Assembly: GCA_018831195.1 (NCBI GenBank)
Contig: JAHJDP010000117.1
Span: 1-64,000 of the forward strand
Source of the DNA: Candidatus Eisenbacteria bacterium
GTDB taxonomy: Bacteria; Eisenbacteria; RBG-16-71-46; CAIMUX01; JAHJDP01
DNA length: 64,000 bases
Reading direction: 5' to 3'
The position numbers were made by a program, and so were the translations under genes. Numbering within the stretch: position 1 is the stretch's first letter; every line of letters begins with the position of its first letter. Positions 25,440-33,141 of this stretch are shown here, in pieces. The notes under the pieces are model-generated. The model had not been told where the DNA came from. It searched no databases and was given only the letters and a program-made list of their open reading frames with translations.

Positions 25440-26258
25440 CTAGGGCGTTCCGGCTCCCTCCGGAAGATTTGTATAATCCAGCTCGGAACCCAGCATGCTG
25501 TGGGGGATCATAAAGATCGCAAAGACCACCAATCCGGCGAAGATAATCCAGGCTCTGTTTCTTTGGCCGCCGCGATTGCGGAACCAGGCCCAGATCCAGA
25601 CGATAACGGCGATCAGCATCTTGTTGTCGGTGAGATCATGCCCCCGCGGAAATCCCGTCCAGAAAGCGCCGAACGCGTACTTTTGCATGATGGGGCCCAT
25701 GATCATTCCGCCGATCAGGAGAAGACCCAATGTAAGGCCGAGCGTACTGGAGGGATTTCCCTTCGGCCGGATCGCCTCTATCGTCGTCCGGTTGGCGAAG
25801 AGCATGGCGAGGAAAATCAGAAAAACATGCGGCCAGAGGACGACTCCAGGCACAGCCCCCTTGTAGCGTATCGTGACGGGAGTTTCGCCGCTCAAGGAGA
25901 TGGGTTCATCCCCTTTCTCGAGATAGACGAAGTAGATCATTTTTCCGGCGGACGGCTGGCGGGGGAGAGTGGTGGTCAATCGCCCTTCCCGCCGGATCAT
26001 CTGAAGTGTTATCCAATCGTCATGAGAGCGGAGTCTTTTGTATTTAACGAGTCCGGTAATCGACGGATCGGAGACATCGATTGCGACCAGCGCATCCTTT
26101 CCGACGACTTCGGTGCGCAATAACTTGAATTTTATATCTGTGTTCCCGACCGTTGTTTCCCCCCGGAGGGGGGTGGTGGGACCGGTCACGCGCTGGTAAA
26201 CAGCCGACGCCGCGGTGATGAAAAATGCGAGGACCCAAATCAAAATTCTAGCTAACAT
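25440..26258 (-). CDS. Membrane protein of the SPFH/permease operon, unknown function
   Basis: 272 residues: an N-terminal helix (about 3-22), a soluble beta-rich domain outside the cytoplasm (about 28-135, PTTPLRGETTVGNTDIKFKLL onward), then four to five helices (about 140-160, 172-192, 208-226 and 238-258). No family is recognised. It is the last gene of the permease-SPFH/hflC/hflK operon, 37 bp after hflK. That position and its membrane topology suggest a fourth component of the same complex. The ribosome-binding site is weak. Confidence 0.8.
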   Translation of the reverse strand: MLARILIWVLAFFITAASAVYQRVTGPTTPLRGETTVGNTDIKFKLLRTEVVGKDALVAIDVSDPSITGLVKYKRLRSHDDWITLQMIRREGRLTTTLPRQPSAGKMIYFVYLEKGDEPISLSGETPVTIRYKGAVPGVVLWPHVFLIFLAMLFANRTTIEAIRPKGNPSSTLGLTLGLLLIGGMIMGPIMQKYAFGAFWTGFPRGHDLTDNKMLIAVIVWIWAWFRNRGGQRNRAWIIFAGLVVFAIFMIPHSMLGSELDYTNLPEGAGTP

Positions 26259-26295
26259 TCAAGCATACCAATTTTTCTTTTATACTCCTCAGTAA

Positions 26296-27264
26296 TCATT
26301 CTTTCTCGCCGCGCCGGAGATGAACATCAATGCGGGGTGATTCACCCGGCGCAAGGATAATCATTTCAGCTTTACTCAAGACATCCTCCATCACTTTGCG
26401 ATACAACTCCACTCGCGTTTGAAGAGGCGCGTCACGGTTTTGTTGCAGGAGAGGTCCAAACCATTGTGCGGCTCCCACCGCCGCTGAAAATCTGTTTTCG
26501 GCCTCCACTTCAGCCGCGGCAATCATCTGGGCTGATTCGGCCCGGGCCAGGCTGAGCTTGCGCTCGCGCTGGCTTTCCGCATTATTGATCGACTGGGCTG
26601 ATTCGGCCCGCGCGTCGCTTACCCGGCGGAAGGCCGCGGCCGCCTCAACCGGGGGATCGACCGATTGTAATGTTACGGCCACAACGGTGATGCCGGTCCC
26701 ATACTTCTTGAGCCAATCTTGGGTCTTGATGCGGACCTCATTCTGAATCAATGTCTTCCCGGATGTCAGGATATCGTCAACCTTCATTTTGCTGGCCGTC
26801 TCCAGGAGAGCGGTGCGTACCGCTTGCTGCAGCACATCGTCGGGCGACTTCGTTCCGAAGAGATATTCTCTCAGCCCGCTGATGCGGTATTGTACAACAA
26901 TGTCGGTGTCAATGAGGTTTTCATCGCCGGTTATAAATTCAAGCTTTGAACCCGTATCACCGGCAATCCGAATTCGATGCACCTCGCCGGTCTTCGCGAT
27001 TTGGGTTTCATCGACGGGTCTGGGGATACAGAAATGCAGGCCGGGCCCGATGCCCTCGCGTTGGAGGCCGCCGAATCTCTTCAGGACGGCGGCTTCACCG
27101 TTCTGAACCGTATAGATCCCGCCGGCGATCCAGATCAGAGCGATGAGAAAGACGCCCAGCAGGGCTAATAGGCCCTTATGGCCGGTCATCCAAAGAGCGC
27201 TCCGCCGGATGATGACAGTGCTCGCCGGTTTTGTCCCCGGTCTTTTCGATGTTGGGTCATTCAC
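26296..27264 (-). CDS. hflK: SPFH-domain protein HflK
   Basis: 322 residues with one N-terminal membrane helix (about 31-53) and then the SPFH/band-7 domain (VQNGEAAVLKRFGGLQREGIGPGLHF). The HflK-type core is ENLIDTDIVVQYRISGLREYLF, KSPDDVLQQAVRTALLETA, and VVAVTLQSVDPPVEAAAAF, followed by a coiled coil (RRVSDARAESAQSINNAE). With HflC it forms the periplasm-facing cage that restrains the FtsH protease. GTG 27264 is the likely start, overlapping the hflC stop by 8 bp. The context is a metal permease, not the usual hfq-hflX genes. Confidence 0.92.
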   Translation of the reverse strand: MNDPTSKRPGTKPASTVIIRRSALWMTGHKGLLALLGVFLIALIWIAGGIYTVQNGEAAVLKRFGGLQREGIGPGLHFCIPRPVDETQIAKTGEVHRIRIAGDTGSKLEFITGDENLIDTDIVVQYRISGLREYLFGTKSPDDVLQQAVRTALLETASKMKVDDILTSGKTLIQNEVRIKTQDWLKKYGTGITVVAVTLQSVDPPVEAAAAFRRVSDARAESAQSINNAESQRERKLSLARAESAQMIAAAEVEAENRFSAAVGAAQWFGPLLQQNRDAPLQTRVELYRKVMEDVLSKAEMIILAPGESPRIDVHLRRGEKE

Positions 27265-28135
27265 CGGTAAGGACCTTCATGAGTTTTGAGTCGGATTCGA
27301 TGAAGATCGTCGTTTCCTCGTCAATGATCTTTTTATAGCTCTCTAGTGTTCTTAAGAAGCGGTAGAACTCCGGATCCTCGGCATAGGCCTCGCCCAGAAT
27401 GCGCAGGGCTTCGGCCTCGCCGGCGCCTCGAATCGAATCGGCCATCGATCGGGCCCGCGCGAGAATGCGTTCGCGCTCCGTCGTCGCCTCCGCCTTAATC
27501 ACAAGCGCCGACTCCTCTCCCTCGCTGCGGTACCGCGTGGCGATCCGCGACCGCTCCGCACGCATCCGGCTGATAACACTGGATCGGTTCTGATCGGGGA
27601 AATTGAATCCATTGATCTGGAAGTCGAGTACTTCGATTCCGAAACCCGCGGAGGTGATCTGGTTCATAGCCTCGGTGACGCGCCGGCTGATATCCGCGAA
27701 CTTGACGGATTTGCCCGTCACGTCGAGGAAAGAGTCCATCGGTTCACTTCCAATGGCGGCGCCCAATTCAGAAACCGAGATGTCCAGCAGCCGGGCCTCC
27801 GCCTCGTCCCGGGTCCGCACTGTTTGTGTATAGCGCAGCGGATCGGCAATGTGCCAGCAAATAAAACTATCGATGAGAAGGTTCTTTTTGTCTGCGGTCA
27901 ACATCTCAATCGGTTCGTTATCAAAAAGAAGGAGCCGGGAGTCGAGCCGTTCAACATCGTCGATCGGCCATGGCATTTTAACATTCAGTCCCGGCTGGGC
28001 CACTTTTGGAAGGGGCCGTCCAAAGCGAGTCACCACGGCGATTTCCGTCTCGTCGATCGCGAACAGCACGGTCGAAATCCAGCCGAGAAGAAGAACGGCC
28101 AAGAGACCCCAGAAGAAAGAACGTCGGGTTTTCAT
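27257..28135 (-). CDS. hflC: SPFH-domain protein HflC
   Basis: 292 residues. The N-terminal membrane helix is about 8-26. The SPFH domain opens with IDETEIAVVTRFGRPLPKVAQPGLNVKMP, then DKKNLLIDSFICWHIADPLRY, and contains FGIEVLDFQINGFNFPDQN. The HflC-type helical end is MRAERSRIATRYRSEGEE, and the chain closes with YKKIIDEETTIFIESDSKL. Partner of the downstream hflK (8-bp overlap). It starts at ATG 28135, 12 bp after the permease-SPFH fusion gene. Confidence 0.92.
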   Translation of the reverse strand: MKTRRSFFWGLLAVLLLGWISTVLFAIDETEIAVVTRFGRPLPKVAQPGLNVKMPWPIDDVERLDSRLLLFDNEPIEMLTADKKNLLIDSFICWHIADPLRYTQTVRTRDEAEARLLDISVSELGAAIGSEPMDSFLDVTGKSVKFADISRRVTEAMNQITSAGFGIEVLDFQINGFNFPDQNRSSVISRMRAERSRIATRYRSEGEESALVIKAEATTERERILARARSMADSIRGAGEAEALRILGEAYAEDPEFYRFLRTLESYKKIIDEETTIFIESDSKLMKVLTGE

Positions 28136-28147
28136 CTCATTTTCCTC

Positions 28148-30415
28148 TCAGTTCCCGCTGGGAGCCGGCAGGGTTGCGGGGAGCTTCCACAAAATCACGC
28201 CATGCCCTTGTGTGCCCGGGGGGACAATGAATTTCTGGCGCCCCGCCAATACGGACTCGCTCGTTTCAAGCCAGAGCAGATCTCTCAAAATAGCAGGATG
28301 CCGTTGATAAGCCTCAACCTGCGCGATATATCCTATGGCTTTGCCTTTCGCTTCGGCCGTCGCGGCCAGGGAGACCGCCTCTACTTCAGCGATTTCCACT
28401 TTTGATTGCCCTCGCGCGATGGGGATTTCACGCTCCGTGACGACATAGGCTTCATGAATGAAGGTCTGACGGTCTTCCCGGGCGCTTGAAACGTCGCGGA
28501 AGGCGTGGACCGCTTCCTGAGGCGGATGGATATCGATCAGATGGATGGAGACAATACGGATTCCGGTTTTGAGATGGGTTAAATGGGTTTGCAGGTTGTC
28601 GCGGATATACAATTCGACGTGGGACCGGTCGCTCGTGAGCAGTGAATCCAGCAAACTGGAACCGATGATCTCGCGGGCTACGGCCTGAGCGTAAAGATTA
28701 ACCAGATCCAAGCTTTTATCCAATTCATAAAAATAGTTATAGGGGTCGGAGAGGAAATAATGAACTGAAAAGCTCATCTCAAACAGGTTTTCGTCGCCGC
28801 TCAGATAACTCGCGACGGTTGGATCGGAATTCATCGCGGCCACGGGGCTATGCCAGACATCCGGCGGAGACTGGCTGCGGAGTTCGCGGCGGTTGGCGAT
28901 CATCTCAAGATCAGTGCGGTATCCGACGTCGGTCTTTCTGGGATAGTTGACCCGCCAAACATCAATTCCCCCGAACGGAGCCGGAAGCGCCCAATGGAGT
29001 CCGGGGGCGAGATTCTTCCTCGTTACTTTGTTAAAGACCCGGCCGAACCCCATCGAATCCGGCGGAACACTTTTGAAACCCGTGAGTCCATAGATCAGGA
29101 TGCCGAGAATGAGGGATCCGCCGATCATGGCGCGGCGGATCGGGATTTTATGGGCGCGGATGGACGCGATCGCCGATTGTGTTCCCGGATGCTCGCGGAT
29201 CGAGATGAAGTTCCCCCGCATTTGTGATAGCGGTTCGCGGGCGGCGCCGGCCCAGAGCCGCCAGACAAGAAGCGCAGCGAGAAGAACAACACACAGAAAA
29301 TGTAAGAGCGCTGTTAACCCGCCGGCGGGGGGCGCGAGGCTGGCTGAAATTGTTAAACCCGTGACGCGGAGGAGAGCATCGAGAGCCAAGCCCCAGGCAA
29401 GGGTCCCCAGGATGACACTGATGAGATAGATCTTCAGAAAGCGGCGCCCGAAGTGATTCGCCACAACCAGAATACTGACGATACTCACCGCGGGACCGGC
29501 CAGAAGCAGCACCAGGGCCGTCCCGGGACTGAATCCGGCCGCGACGAGAGCGGCCGCCACCGGCGTGCTCCCGGATGAACAGGTATACATGGGGACGGCG
29601 ATCAGGAGGACGACAATCATTGTGAGGAGCTGTGAACCGGCGCCGCGCTCCGCCAAATCCGCCGGGAATAAAGCGCCGAGCACACCGGCGAGGAGAAGAC
29701 CGATGATGAGATAAAAAGCGATATCGTCGAGAGCCCGGGTGAAGGCATACCGCCCGATCGAGTGCAAAATAGCGGGGAAAGGGACAACCGATTCTTCCGG
29801 CTTGGATTTGATGGGCGCTCCGGATGATTTTTGTGGAAATTCCAGGAAGAGCGAGCGGAGCCACCTTTTGAAAGAGAGCCGGAATTGCCGGAAACCGACA
29901 AAATCTTCTGGGTTTTGATCGAGATGAGAAGCCTCATCGATCCGGCATCCGCACTCCGGGGGCTGGGCGGCTGCGCCGGTATGGGGTGCGCCACCCTCTT
30001 CGTCGCTCGTCGAGGCGATCGAGAGGATCCCGGCGAGTGTTCCCGTTAGGAATGAGGCGAGAGGACGGAAGATCGCCATGAGGGGGCCCAGCAAACCCCA
30101 GGTGAGGATCAGCGCGGCGATATTTGTTTCGGGAGTCGTGATAAGAAAAGAGGCGGTCGCCGGCTCACTGGCTCCCCGGCGGTGCAGGGCAATGGCGGTC
30201 GGGAGAACGCTGCAGCTGCAGAGGGGGAGCGGGATGCCGAGGAGAGCCGCCCTGACGACGGCGGAAAGGCCCGATTGACCCATCCATCTCAAAATGCGGC
30301 TCGGAGAGAGCAGAATCTGAAGAACTCCTGCCATCAGCAGCCCAAAGAGGATAAAGGGCGCGGCCAGGTAGAAGAGGTTCCAGGCCTCGGTCAATACAGT
30401 GGGAATCCAACTCAC
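28148..30415 (-). CDS. Cu/Zn-type permease fused to an HflK-like SPFH domain
   Basis: About 755 residues. The first 400 are a polytopic permease of the DUF318/ArsP-related 'SO_0444 Cu/Zn efflux' type, with eight or more helices. It carries the two repeat signatures, PLPLCSCSVLP (about 64-72) and MYTCSSGSTPVAAAL (about 276-290), whose Cys and polar residues line the presumed substrate path. A Cys/His-bearing loop (PPECGCRIDEASH) lies between the halves. After two more helices, residues about 450-755 form a complete SPFH domain: SVPPDSMGFGRVFNKV, GDENLFEMSFSVHYFLSDP, IVSIHLIDIHPPQEAVHAF, then an Ala/Glu-rich coiled coil. I prefer GTG 30415, with GAGGA 7 bp upstream and the family's usual N-terminus; TTG 30523 or ATG 30466 are possible. 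Export substrate inferred from family and the divergent Znu genes. Confidence 0.85.
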   Translation of the reverse strand: MSWIPTVLTEAWNLFYLAAPFILFGLLMAGVLQILLSPSRILRWMGQSGLSAVVRAALLGIPLPLCSCSVLPTAIALHRRGASEPATASFLITTPETNIAALILTWGLLGPLMAIFRPLASFLTGTLAGILSIASTSDEEGGAPHTGAAAQPPECGCRIDEASHLDQNPEDFVGFRQFRLSFKRWLRSLFLEFPQKSSGAPIKSKPEESVVPFPAILHSIGRYAFTRALDDIAFYLIIGLLLAGVLGALFPADLAERGAGSQLLTMIVVLLIAVPMYTCSSGSTPVAAALVAAGFSPGTALVLLLAGPAVSIVSILVVANHFGRRFLKIYLISVILGTLAWGLALDALLRVTGLTISASLAPPAGGLTALLHFLCVVLLAALLVWRLWAGAAREPLSQMRGNFISIREHPGTQSAIASIRAHKIPIRRAMIGGSLILGILIYGLTGFKSVPPDSMGFGRVFNKVTRKNLAPGLHWALPAPFGGIDVWRVNYPRKTDVGYRTDLEMIANRRELRSQSPPDVWHSPVAAMNSDPTVASYLSGDENLFEMSFSVHYFLSDPYNYFYELDKSLDLVNLYAQAVAREIIGSSLLDSLLTSDRSHVELYIRDNLQTHLTHLKTGIRIVSIHLIDIHPPQEAVHAFRDVSSAREDRQTFIHEAYVVTEREIPIARGQSKVEIAEVEAVSLAATAEAKGKAIGYIAQVEAYQRHPAILRDLLWLETSESVLAGRQKFIVPPGTQGHGVILWKLPATLPAPSGN

Positions 30416-30644
30416 ATTGCAGTCCTCGACGGCGGTGATACCCCACCCGGTTGGGTGGATTTCCATCAAAGGGATCAGGGGAAGTCTAACGCAAATACAT
30501 ATTTTAGAAAGTCCCCTCTTCAACCTTTCATCCTAGCCGAGTCTGCAATCCGTCGCTATAGGTACAAATTTTTATGACACGGTTTGATTCGGTCCACTAA
30601 TCTTATGTCGAGTCGCCTTGGTTTGAATGGGGCAGGAGAATATT

Positions 30645-31553
30645 ATGATGTCACAATGGGTCAGGGGCCTCCTTGGAGGCGCCGTCATCCTTTTTCTTGG
30701 GGCTTCGGCCTCGTCAGTGGAAGCATCGGCTGATCCGCTTTCGGTTTTTGTCAGTGTCCTGCCGCTGAAGTCCTTTGTTGAGAGTGTCGGGGGAGATCGC
30801 GTGCAGGTATCCGTCATGGTCGGCCCCGGTCAGAGTCCCGCCACCTATGAACCGACACCGAAGCAGATGTCGCAGCTGGCGGAATCAAGGCTCTACTTTA
30901 GGGTCGGGGTCCCCTTTGAGAATGTTTGGATCGACCGGCTGCAATCGGTCAATCCGCAGATGATGATCATTGATCTGAGAAAAGATCTTCCCCTGAGGAC
31001 CTTTGAGGCGGGCGGCGCCGGCGCTTCGCATGCGGGTCATGATCATGTAGAAGAGCATGACCATGGCTCGTTTGACCCGCATGTCTGGACAAGCCCGCCG
31101 CTGGCAAAGATGATGGCGGAGAGGATTCGGGACACTCTGAGAGAGCTCGACGCCGGGAACAGCGCTCTCTACGACGAGGGGTATCGGCGATTTTCCGCGG
31201 AGCTGGACAGCCTGGATGCCGATATCCGCCGGGAATTGGCGGATCTCCCCTCCCGTAGATTCATGGTTTTCCATCCCTCATGGGGGTATTTCGCCGAAAC
31301 GTATAACCTTGAGCAGATTCCTATCGAGTATGAGGGGAAGGAGCCTGGCGCAAAGATGTTGGCGCGGGTGATACAAATTGGGAAGGAAGAGGGCATCAGA
31401 GTCGTTTTTGTACAAGAACAATTCAACGCCTCCATTGCGGAAACGGTGGCCCGGGCGATCGGCGCGCAAGTCGTCAAGGTGGATCCCCTGGCGCCGGATT
31501 ACGCGGCGAACCTGAAAAGGACGGCGGCGGCCTTTGCCACAGCCATGAGATAG
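30645..31553 (+). CDS. znuA: ZnuA-like metal ABC transporter substrate-binding protein
   Basis: An exported solute-binding protein of the cluster A-I family that binds zinc (or manganese) in the periplasm. A signal peptide (WVRGLLGGAVILFLGASAS) is followed by FVSVLPLKSFVESVGGDRV and ATYEPTPKQM. The mobile His-rich loop (HAGHDHVEEHDHG) and DPHVWTSP come next, then FMVFHPSWGYFAE and VVFVQEQFN. The His-rich loop favours zinc over manganese. Start ATG 30645 has AGGAG 6 bp upstream. First of three genes (A, C, B) with overlapping ends, divergent from the permease-SPFH operon. No clear Zur-like box could be read in the gap. Confidence 0.92.
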   Translation: MMSQWVRGLLGGAVILFLGASASSVEASADPLSVFVSVLPLKSFVESVGGDRVQVSVMVGPGQSPATYEPTPKQMSQLAESRLYFRVGVPFENVWIDRLQSVNPQMMIIDLRKDLPLRTFEAGGAGASHAGHDHVEEHDHGSFDPHVWTSPPLAKMMAERIRDTLRELDAGNSALYDEGYRRFSAELDSLDADIRRELADLPSRRFMVFHPSWGYFAETYNLEQIPIEYEGKEPGAKMLARVIQIGKEEGIRVVFVQEQFNASIAETVARAIGAQVVKVDPLAPDYAANLKRTAAAFATAMR

Positions 31554-31555
31554 TG

Positions 31556-32305
31556 ATGGAACCGGTCATCGTTTTTAAGAATCTCTCCTTCTCCTACGGA
31601 TCGTTCCCGGTGCTCCAGAATATTGATCTCACCATTGAAAGGGGTGAATTTCTCGGTGTCGTCGGGCCCAACGCCGGCGGTAAGAGCACCCTTCTTAAAA
31701 TCGCACTGGGGCTTCTTGAGCCCTCGTCCGGCTCCGTAACGGTACTGGGCCGGAGGGCGAGCCAGGGGCGGGAAGCGATAGGGTACGTTCCGCAGCGCGC
31801 CACGGCGGTGCGGGATTTCCCTATTTCAGTCGAAGAAACGGTTCTACTGGGAAGGCTGAGCGCCACGCACCTTATCGGCGGATATCGACAGGAGGATCGG
31901 GCGGCCGCGGAACTGGCCATGAATGAGGCCCAGATACTCGATATTAGAAGCCGCCCGCTCGGCAACCTTTCCGGAGGGCAATTTCAAAGGGTTCTGATCG
32001 CCCGCGCGCTGGCGGGAGAGCCCAAAATCCTCATGTTTGATGAGCCGACAGCCAATATTGATCCGCATGTTGAAAAATCGATCTTCGATCTTCTCCGGCA
32101 ATTGAATGAGCGTATGACGATCATCGTCGTCTCGCATGACATCGGATTCATATCCCAGTATGTGACCCGAGTCGCCTGTCTGAATAAAACGCTGGTCTGT
32201 CATAGAACCTCCGCGCTTACCGGTGAAACGATTGAAAGGATTTACGGATCCGATATACACTTGATAGACCATAAACACCATCTCGGTCCGGAGCCCCCGT
32301 CATGA
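31556..32305 (+). CDS. znuC: ZnuC-like metal ABC transporter ATP-binding protein
   Basis: About 249 residues. Walker A is GPNAGGKSTL, the signature is NLSGGQFQRVLIARAL, Walker B is KILMFDEPTAN and the switch His lies in VVSHDIGFIS. It powers the importer and binds the permease on the cytoplasmic face. The start is ATG 31556 (or GTG 31553), touching the znuA stop. The permease gene overlaps its last codon (ATGA-type junction). Confidence 0.93.
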   Translation: MEPVIVFKNLSFSYGSFPVLQNIDLTIERGEFLGVVGPNAGGKSTLLKIALGLLEPSSGSVTVLGRRASQGREAIGYVPQRATAVRDFPISVEETVLLGRLSATHLIGGYRQEDRAAAELAMNEAQILDIRSRPLGNLSGGQFQRVLIARALAGEPKILMFDEPTANIDPHVEKSIFDLLRQLNERMTIIVVSHDIGFISQYVTRVACLNKTLVCHRTSALTGETIERIYGSDIHLIDHKHHLGPEPPS

Positions 32306-33141
32306 GTGGTTTCTTTCAAGCCTTAATGAACCAGAGCTTTCTCCAGAATGCCCTTCTGGCCGGGATTCTGGCGAGTATTGGTTGTGGTGTTGTGGGCACC
32401 TACGTTGTCGTTAAGAAGATCGGCTATTTGGCGGGGGGGATCGCCCACGCCGTGCTGGGCGGGATGGGGCTCGCCATTTTTCTCGGACAACCGCCGATGG
32501 CCGGCGCGACGATTGCGGCCCTGGTTGCGGCTCTGATCATCGGCTGGGTCAGCCTTCGATGGAGGCAGCATGAGGATACCCTGATCGGCGCCCTGTGGGC
32601 GGTTGGGATGGCCATCGGTATCATTTTTATCTCCAAAACCCCGGGATATAACGTTGATTTGATGAGTTATCTCTTCGGCAATATTCTGATGGTCTCGCGA
32701 CTTGATATCATCATGATGACGATTTTGGATCTCGTAATCATTCTCATCGTCTTTCTCTTTTATAGACTTTTTCTCGCCGTTTGTTTTGACGACGAGTTTG
32801 CCCGCCTCCAAGGTGTTCCGGTGAATCTTTTCTATTTACTTTTACTTTGCCTGACGGCGCTGACGGTTGTCCTTCTCATCCAAGTTGTCGGGCTTATTCT
32901 TGTCATCGCCCTTCTGACCCTCCCCGCCGCCATTGCGGGCCACCATGTCGGATCCCTGGGACGGATGATGGTTGTCGCTGTCATTCTCGGCGCTCTATTT
33001 ACAAGCGGCGGCCTGATTCTTTCGTATGAACCGGATCTTCCCGCGGGCGCCTCCATCATTCTCTTGGCGGCGGGCGGCTATATTCTTTCTTTTTTCGGAA
33101 AATACCTGATGACCCGCCGGCGCCGGAAACGGACGAGTTGA
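32302..33141 (+). CDS. znuB: ZnuB-like metal ABC transporter permease
   Basis: 279 residues with about eight membrane helices, the ABC-3 permease fold. Typical phrases: GILASIGCGVVGTYVVVKKIGYLAGGIAHAVLGGMG near the start, DTLIGALWAVGMAIGIIF, and the coupling-helix region VCFDDEFARLQGVPVN. It ends with a basic tail (MTRRRRKRTS). The start overlaps znuC by 4 bp. Completes the importer. Confidence 0.93.
   Translation: MSGFFQALMNQSFLQNALLAGILASIGCGVVGTYVVVKKIGYLAGGIAHAVLGGMGLAIFLGQPPMAGATIAALVAALIIGWVSLRWRQHEDTLIGALWAVGMAIGIIFISKTPGYNVDLMSYLFGNILMVSRLDIIMMTILDLVIILIVFLFYRLFLAVCFDDEFARLQGVPVNLFYLLLLCLTALTVVLLIQVVGLILVIALLTLPAAIAGHHVGSLGRMMVVAVILGALFTSGGLILSYEPDLPAGASIILLAAGGYILSFFGKYLMTRRRRKRTS

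Follow-up and report, generated by a model that had tools for sequence, protein, structure and literature searches.

In the 64,000-nt stretch of DNA analyzed here (the window), from contig JAHJDP010000117.1 of a Candidatus Eisenbacteria bacterium, one gene, which we call F, joins a metal permease to an SPFH subunit of the HflK type, and it is followed by two further SPFH genes, hflC2 and hflK2. The genes listed for this region by the initial annotation, which was made from the DNA letters, all lie where it had placed them, and the three SPFH subunits that it saw in one unit are F and then HflC and HflK proteins, the latter two recognized by curated models. The cassette has the following parts:

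28148..30415, minus strand: F, SO_0444-type permease plus HflK-like SPFH subunit, 755 amino acids (aa), GTG start
29243..30415, minus strand: permease domain of F, aa 1-391, with the C66/C68/C279 motifs
29135..29242, minus strand: basic linker of F, aa 392-427, predicted cytoplasmic
29078..29134, minus strand: extra membrane helix of F, aa 428-446, the counterpart of the N-terminal membrane helix of HflK
28151..29077, minus strand: SPFH1/2 of F with a 73-residue helix (aa 633-705, the coiled-coil arm of HflK/C) and the C-terminal end
27257..28135, minus strand: hflC2, cassette-specific HflC (HflC equivalog, 191 against a cut-off of 134 bits)
26296..27264, minus strand: hflK2, cassette-specific HflK (163.8 against a cut-off of 159.4 bits, just passing), with an 8-base overlap with hflC2

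The F protein matches PF03773 (aa 18-344, 148 bits) and PF01145 (aa 468-656, 37 bits) in Pfam. In NCBIfam, the permease half passes the SO_0444 Cu/Zn efflux model NF033936 (316.4 bits, cut-off 300), and the SPFH half scores 131.6 bits with the hflK model TIGR01933 (aa 524-732), below its cut-off of 159.4, and is HflK-like rather than HflK proper. The initial annotation described a DUF318/ArsP-like permease fused to a full SPFH domain; the fusion and the origin of one half in a metal exporter family both hold, while the best family is SO_0444 (Cu/Zn) and not the organo-arsenic ArsP. Both permease motifs that it pointed out, PLCSCSVLP (C66, C68) and CSSGSTP (C279), are found in F, and the CSC is conserved in 23/23 readable fusions. 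The loop between the permease halves (aa 139-212) is acidic and holds Cys or His in most relatives, with long His runs in the central loop of two fusions (L036 and L082; L and G numbers are our labels for loci and genomes), and this composition suggests that the loop may bind metal. An AlphaFold2 single-chain model of F (mean predicted local distance difference test score 84, predicted template modelling score 0.56) contains the 73-residue helix, while the relative placement of the domains is uncertain because of the latter score. The best matches of the model in the PDB by Foldseek are HflK of the HflK/C-FtsH complex (top entries 9cz2, 7vhq and 7wi3), followed by stomatin, prohibitin and erlin, and among the matches listed the permease half gives none better than the HflK-type ones. 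The HflK fold with its long coiled-coil arm is thus present in F.

The permease-SPFH fusion is genuine and is encoded in one open frame. It is found in 36 loci, comprising a first set of 24, two of which end at a contig edge, and 12 identified later. All loci of the first set share one plan, with the permease followed by a basic linker, one membrane helix and the SPFH part, and the frame is open across the junction. In 21 of these 24 loci the linker carries a net positive charge, and by the positive-inside rule it is predicted to be cytoplasmic and the SPFH part periplasmic, as in HflK/HflC. Two findings that the initial annotation had named as fatal to its proposal did not appear: the fusion is no assembly error, since 36 such fusions were read and the gene order around them holds across phyla, and no close relative has the permease and the SPFH part as separate neighboring genes.

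The fusion is present in 8/11 genomes of the window's own order and in none of the 36 remaining genomes of the phylum. At least 16 further fusions were detected among 84,980 named species genomes, in metagenome-assembled genomes (MAGs) labeled Deltaproteobacteria, Gammaproteobacteria, Spirochaetales, Latescibacterota, Gemmatimonadetes, Acidobacteria, Rokubacteria, Binatia, Phycisphaerae, Planctomycetota and Myxococcales. Among the matches listed, hflC and hflK lie downstream on the same strand in 15/16 fusions, the exception being L091, where hflC is upstream and the contig ends within the fusion; among those matches whose flanks were read, none of the 64 other permease loci has hflC or hflK in its flanks. 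A search of plasmids with the window fusion as query gave no full-length permease fusion. The best bait was a profile of HflC2, which was run on 385 genomes and led to 60 neighborhoods that were read, which divide into ordinary K-C pairs and F-C2-K2 cassettes. The full set of 57 cassettes consists of the window, 23 first-set loci and 33 more. The order F-HflC2-HflK2 is conserved over about a dozen phyla and was scored as clean by script in 47/57 cassettes, while the other 10 run into a contig end, contain a frameshift or over-long frames, or have an additional HflC2. The extra HflC2 gene lies upstream of the fusion in L209 and L219 (order C2-F-C2-K2), and in L081:11076-12009 hflK2 seems to be broken in two by a frameshift or an error of sequencing.

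The transporter at the N-terminus of F is not always the permease. By family, it is an SO_0444 permease in 36 cases, a CDF protein in 13, a P1B-ATPase in 1 and a DMT protein in 1. All 29 complete cassettes, one of them on an Aquibium plasmid, have a first subunit extended at its N-terminus by 211-683 aa, and the extension of HflK in ordinary hflK-hflC pairs is 1-46 aa (27 cases). The 29 complete extensions are made up of 12 SO_0444 permeases, 13 CDF proteins, 1 P1B-ATPase, 1 DMT protein and 2 that fall in no assigned family (L255 and L260). The CDF extensions match PF01545 and have the two HxxxD motifs typical of zinc CDFs; L216:6491-9613 joins a P1B heavy-metal ATPase to an HflK-type SPFH part in 1040 aa (TIGR01525, 616 bits), and L231:8924-11311 joins an EamA/DMT transporter to SPFH and is followed by HflC2 and HflK2. 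The C-terminus of CDF, P1B-ATPase and DMT proteins is generally placed in the cytoplasm, a position that suits fusion to an HflK-type subunit, whose N-terminus is cytoplasmic. The P. aeruginosa-like arrangement of an SPFH trio beside a separate P-type ATPase gene (the HmtA-type layout) was read on plasmids of Paraburkholderia, Burkholderia and Rhizobium, and in trios of this type F has a multi-helix N-terminal domain of no assigned family (L255:6281-8107, L260:6263-8125 and L269:5425-7245), whose end is conserved around GIDLRQ.W. Downstream of the L255 and L260 cassettes lies a gene for an HmtA-like P-type ATPase, and the N-terminal domain of these two gives a weak profile match to CDF (probability 47%), at which the family is not assigned. 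One CDF plus HflK-type SPFH fusion, L170:7406-8953 (NZ_CP018172.1), lies on a finished conjugative plasmid of cultured Aquibium oceanicum, where it is annotated only as HflK and adjoins a heavy-metal P-type ATPase, PCu(A)C and SCO.

In quick trees, with Shimodaira-Hasegawa-like approximate likelihood ratio test values as the only support, the SPFH parts of the fusions form one group (99), HflK2 falls on one side (90) and ordinary HflK stands apart (99). HflC2 and HflK2 are, by these sequence trees, lineages apart from ordinary HflC and HflK. A single origin of the fused permease is neither rejected nor established (approximately unbiased test, p = 0.089). An unfused SO_0444 permease, L103:7929-9188, ends in the linker region and groups beside the L082 fusion; it is possibly a loss or a forerunner of the SPFH part.

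A zinc importer reads away from F in the window, and the surrounding features are as follows:

30416..30626, no strand: divergent intergenic region, 211 bp
30627..31553, plus strand: znuA, zinc-type substrate-binding protein with a His-rich loop (PF01297); the genome has one other PF01297 gene
31553..32305, plus strand: znuC, ABC ATPase (PF00005)
32302..33141, plus strand: znuB, ABC permease (PF00950)
25440..26258, minus strand: membrane protein without a known family, a neighbor outside the cassette

The window thus has PF01297, an ABC ATPase and PF00950 in one operon, as expected of ZnuABC; ZnuA, ZnuC and ZnuB all fall under the NCBIfam equivalog cut-offs, so that zinc is a likely rather than a certain substrate. 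Importers recur beside the cassettes, in agreement with the link to zinc import drawn in the initial annotation: ZIP or ZnuA/ZnuB genes lie within 5 kb of 16/57 cassettes and of 0/39 ordinary hflKC pairs (Fisher p = 1e-4, uncorrected for relatedness), and with P-type ATPases counted the numbers are 20/57 and 2/39 (p = 5e-4, likewise uncorrected). No HmtA-like P-type ATPase is found within 5 kb of the window cassette. The expectation that the fusion always sits beside hflK/hflC and znuABC is borne out for the former and not for the latter. The place and direction of ZnuABC vary among cassettes, which suggests that its layout is free and that the partnership of importer and cassette probably arose several times. 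The membrane protein at 25440-26258 has no Pfam or NCBIfam match, and its proposed membership in the unit was dropped, as its homologues in the same order sit at other loci (G009:C679, G008:C218 and G005:C21). No RNA element is found in the window with Rfam, and three Fur-family genes are present in its genome.

We consider it probable that F, HflC2 and HflK2 form a dedicated SPFH assembly for Zn/Cu homeostasis, a dome with metal exporters at its base. The three subunits would co-assemble into a periplasmic dome like that of HflK/C, and F would occupy the HflK-type positions, so that several exporters would encircle the patch of membrane that the dome covers. The ringed exporters would send Zn/Cu out of the cytoplasm at this site, and by clustering them, possibly together with partner importers, the dome may set where and when the exported metal goes. 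The domain content, the single frame of F, the kept gene order, the distinct lineages, the several metal-transporter families and the recurring importers all support this dome. It is also favored by the HflK-type fold of the F model, the long N-terminal extensions, the Zn/Cu sensitivity of SO_0444 mutants (PMC3219624), the zinc response and Zur binding of a P. aeruginosa locus (PMC4542158, PMC11761036, PMC8531726) and the precedent of the stomatin dome (PMC12407830). Other observations weigh against it. In 37/57 cassettes no importer or P-type ATPase is recognized within 5 kb, and the adjacency test ignores relatedness and compares flanks of unequal length. F subunits that bear different transporters are not recovered as a single well-supported clade (split support 45), which is compatible with transporter swapping onto one F lineage as well as with independent fusions. 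Data on the similarly arranged Pseudomonas aeruginosa locus indicate zinc starvation (PMC4542158, PMC11761036, PMC8531726), an odd time for an exporter, and its transporter is reported as an importer. A bolder form of the proposal, which we put forward only tentatively, is that transporter-bearing SPFH domes would be protein-walled metal buffers, in which swappable exporters fill the enclosed periplasmic space and partner importers (ZnuABC, ZIP, HmtA) draw on it.

The acceptance of several transporter families would also be expected if the SPFH part were a mere oligomerization tag that gathers many transporters in an ungated microdomain enclosing no space, and mycobacterial PacL proteins are described as building metal-efflux platforms without SPFH domes (PMC9374683, PMC13043812). 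We find such plain clustering possible and yet unlikely, because the HflK arm is complete in F, which moreover always occurs with two more distinct SPFH subunits, and this exceeds the need of a tag. Coupling to proteostasis, as advanced in the initial annotation, is somewhat less likely still. Here the F-HflC2-HflK2 cage would enclose FtsH and govern the turnover of metal transporters or report metal status to it; ordinary HflK/C do surround FtsH and change membrane protein degradation (PMC12048511), and the SPFH arms of the cassette are near HflK in sequence and fold. However, ftsH is absent from all cassette neighborhoods, the only ftsH of the window's genome is unlinked, an ordinary hflK-hflC pair (L043) is retained elsewhere in that genome, and HflC2 and HflK2 have diverged from the ordinary pair.

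Two further explanations concern the locus itself. The divergence of znuA and F from the 211-bp gap would fit a system whose essence is balanced import and export under one promoter region, but we regard this as very unlikely. The opposed arrangement is not general: ZnuABC reads in the same direction as the cassette from an upstream position in L036 and L041 and from a downstream one in L090 and L092, and most cassettes have no ZnuABC nearby. The gap contains only short imperfect palindromes and no strong one. Most fusions come from draft MAGs, which could raise the suspicion of a frame error, an assembly join or chance neighbors; this reading is excluded by the conserved junction and by the repeated finding of fusions in assemblies made independently, among them the single-contig genomes G141 and G279 and the finished Aquibium oceanicum plasmid.

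The initial annotation knew of no described system with this layout, and we found no paper on a transporter-SPFH fusion in the literature searched, which mostly leaves out subscription journals. These results suggest that the transporter-SPFH class is widespread and apparently undescribed, and it is hidden in databases because annotated plasmid records label its genes simply as HflK or SPFH. Most bacterial SPFH proteins have no clear role. The covalent joining of an SPFH cage subunit to metal transporters of at least four families, over many phyla, is strong genome-structure evidence that one SPFH branch acts on transport itself, and the class supplies a concrete substrate (Zn/Cu) and a topology for that branch.

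Among known systems, Escherichia coli HflK/HflC share with F the HflK-type fold, the single membrane helix and the periplasmic SPFH topology, which for F is predicted from the basic linker. They differ from the cassette in having two subunits without a transporter domain, in belonging to separate lineages and in usually being encoded at two-gene loci without metal importers; the window, which has a third SPFH gene and a transporter at the N-terminus of F, is not of this ordinary type with a short HflK N-terminus. The human stomatin dome is, unlike the cassette, made of a single SPFH protein on the cytoplasmic side, with non-covalent cargo for water and urea. It corrals AQP1 and UT-B in a membrane patch, so SPFH domes are able to corral transporters (PMC12407830). 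Mycobacterial PacL resembles the proposed cassette in its scaffolded clusters of metal exporters and differs from F in being encoded by separate genes and in not being described there as an SPFH protein (PMC9374683, PMC13043812). Shewanella SO_0444 resembles the permease half of F, which passes its model and has the CSC and C..STP motifs; SO_0444 mutants of S. oneidensis are Zn/Cu sensitive, and the operon of this founder includes a ZntR-like regulator, unlike F in its SPFH cassette (PMC3219624).

The closest studied locus is PA2434-PA2439 of P. aeruginosa, which, like the cassette, has three SPFH genes in one operon with a Zn/Cu transporter. The transporter there is a separate P-type ATPase gene, hmtA, beside three HflK/HflC-type genes, and in the window it is an SO_0444 permease fused to F; the kinship of the trio to F, HflC2 and HflK2 is inferred from layout and not from sequence. 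Loss of znuA raises the locus 6- to 14-fold (PMC4542158), its proteins are more abundant under zinc depletion (PMC11761036), and Zur binds the PA2439 promoter (PMC8531726). PaFlo5-6-7, a three-gene SPFH operon of PA14 that by its layout would be the same locus as PA2437-2439, gives mild deletion phenotypes only (PMC13086221). These data suggest that at least one relative serves zinc limitation, which disagrees with pure detoxification; controlled placement or recycling of metal may suit them better. The fusion class in turn offers an explanation for this Zur-bound SPFH operon of Pseudomonas.

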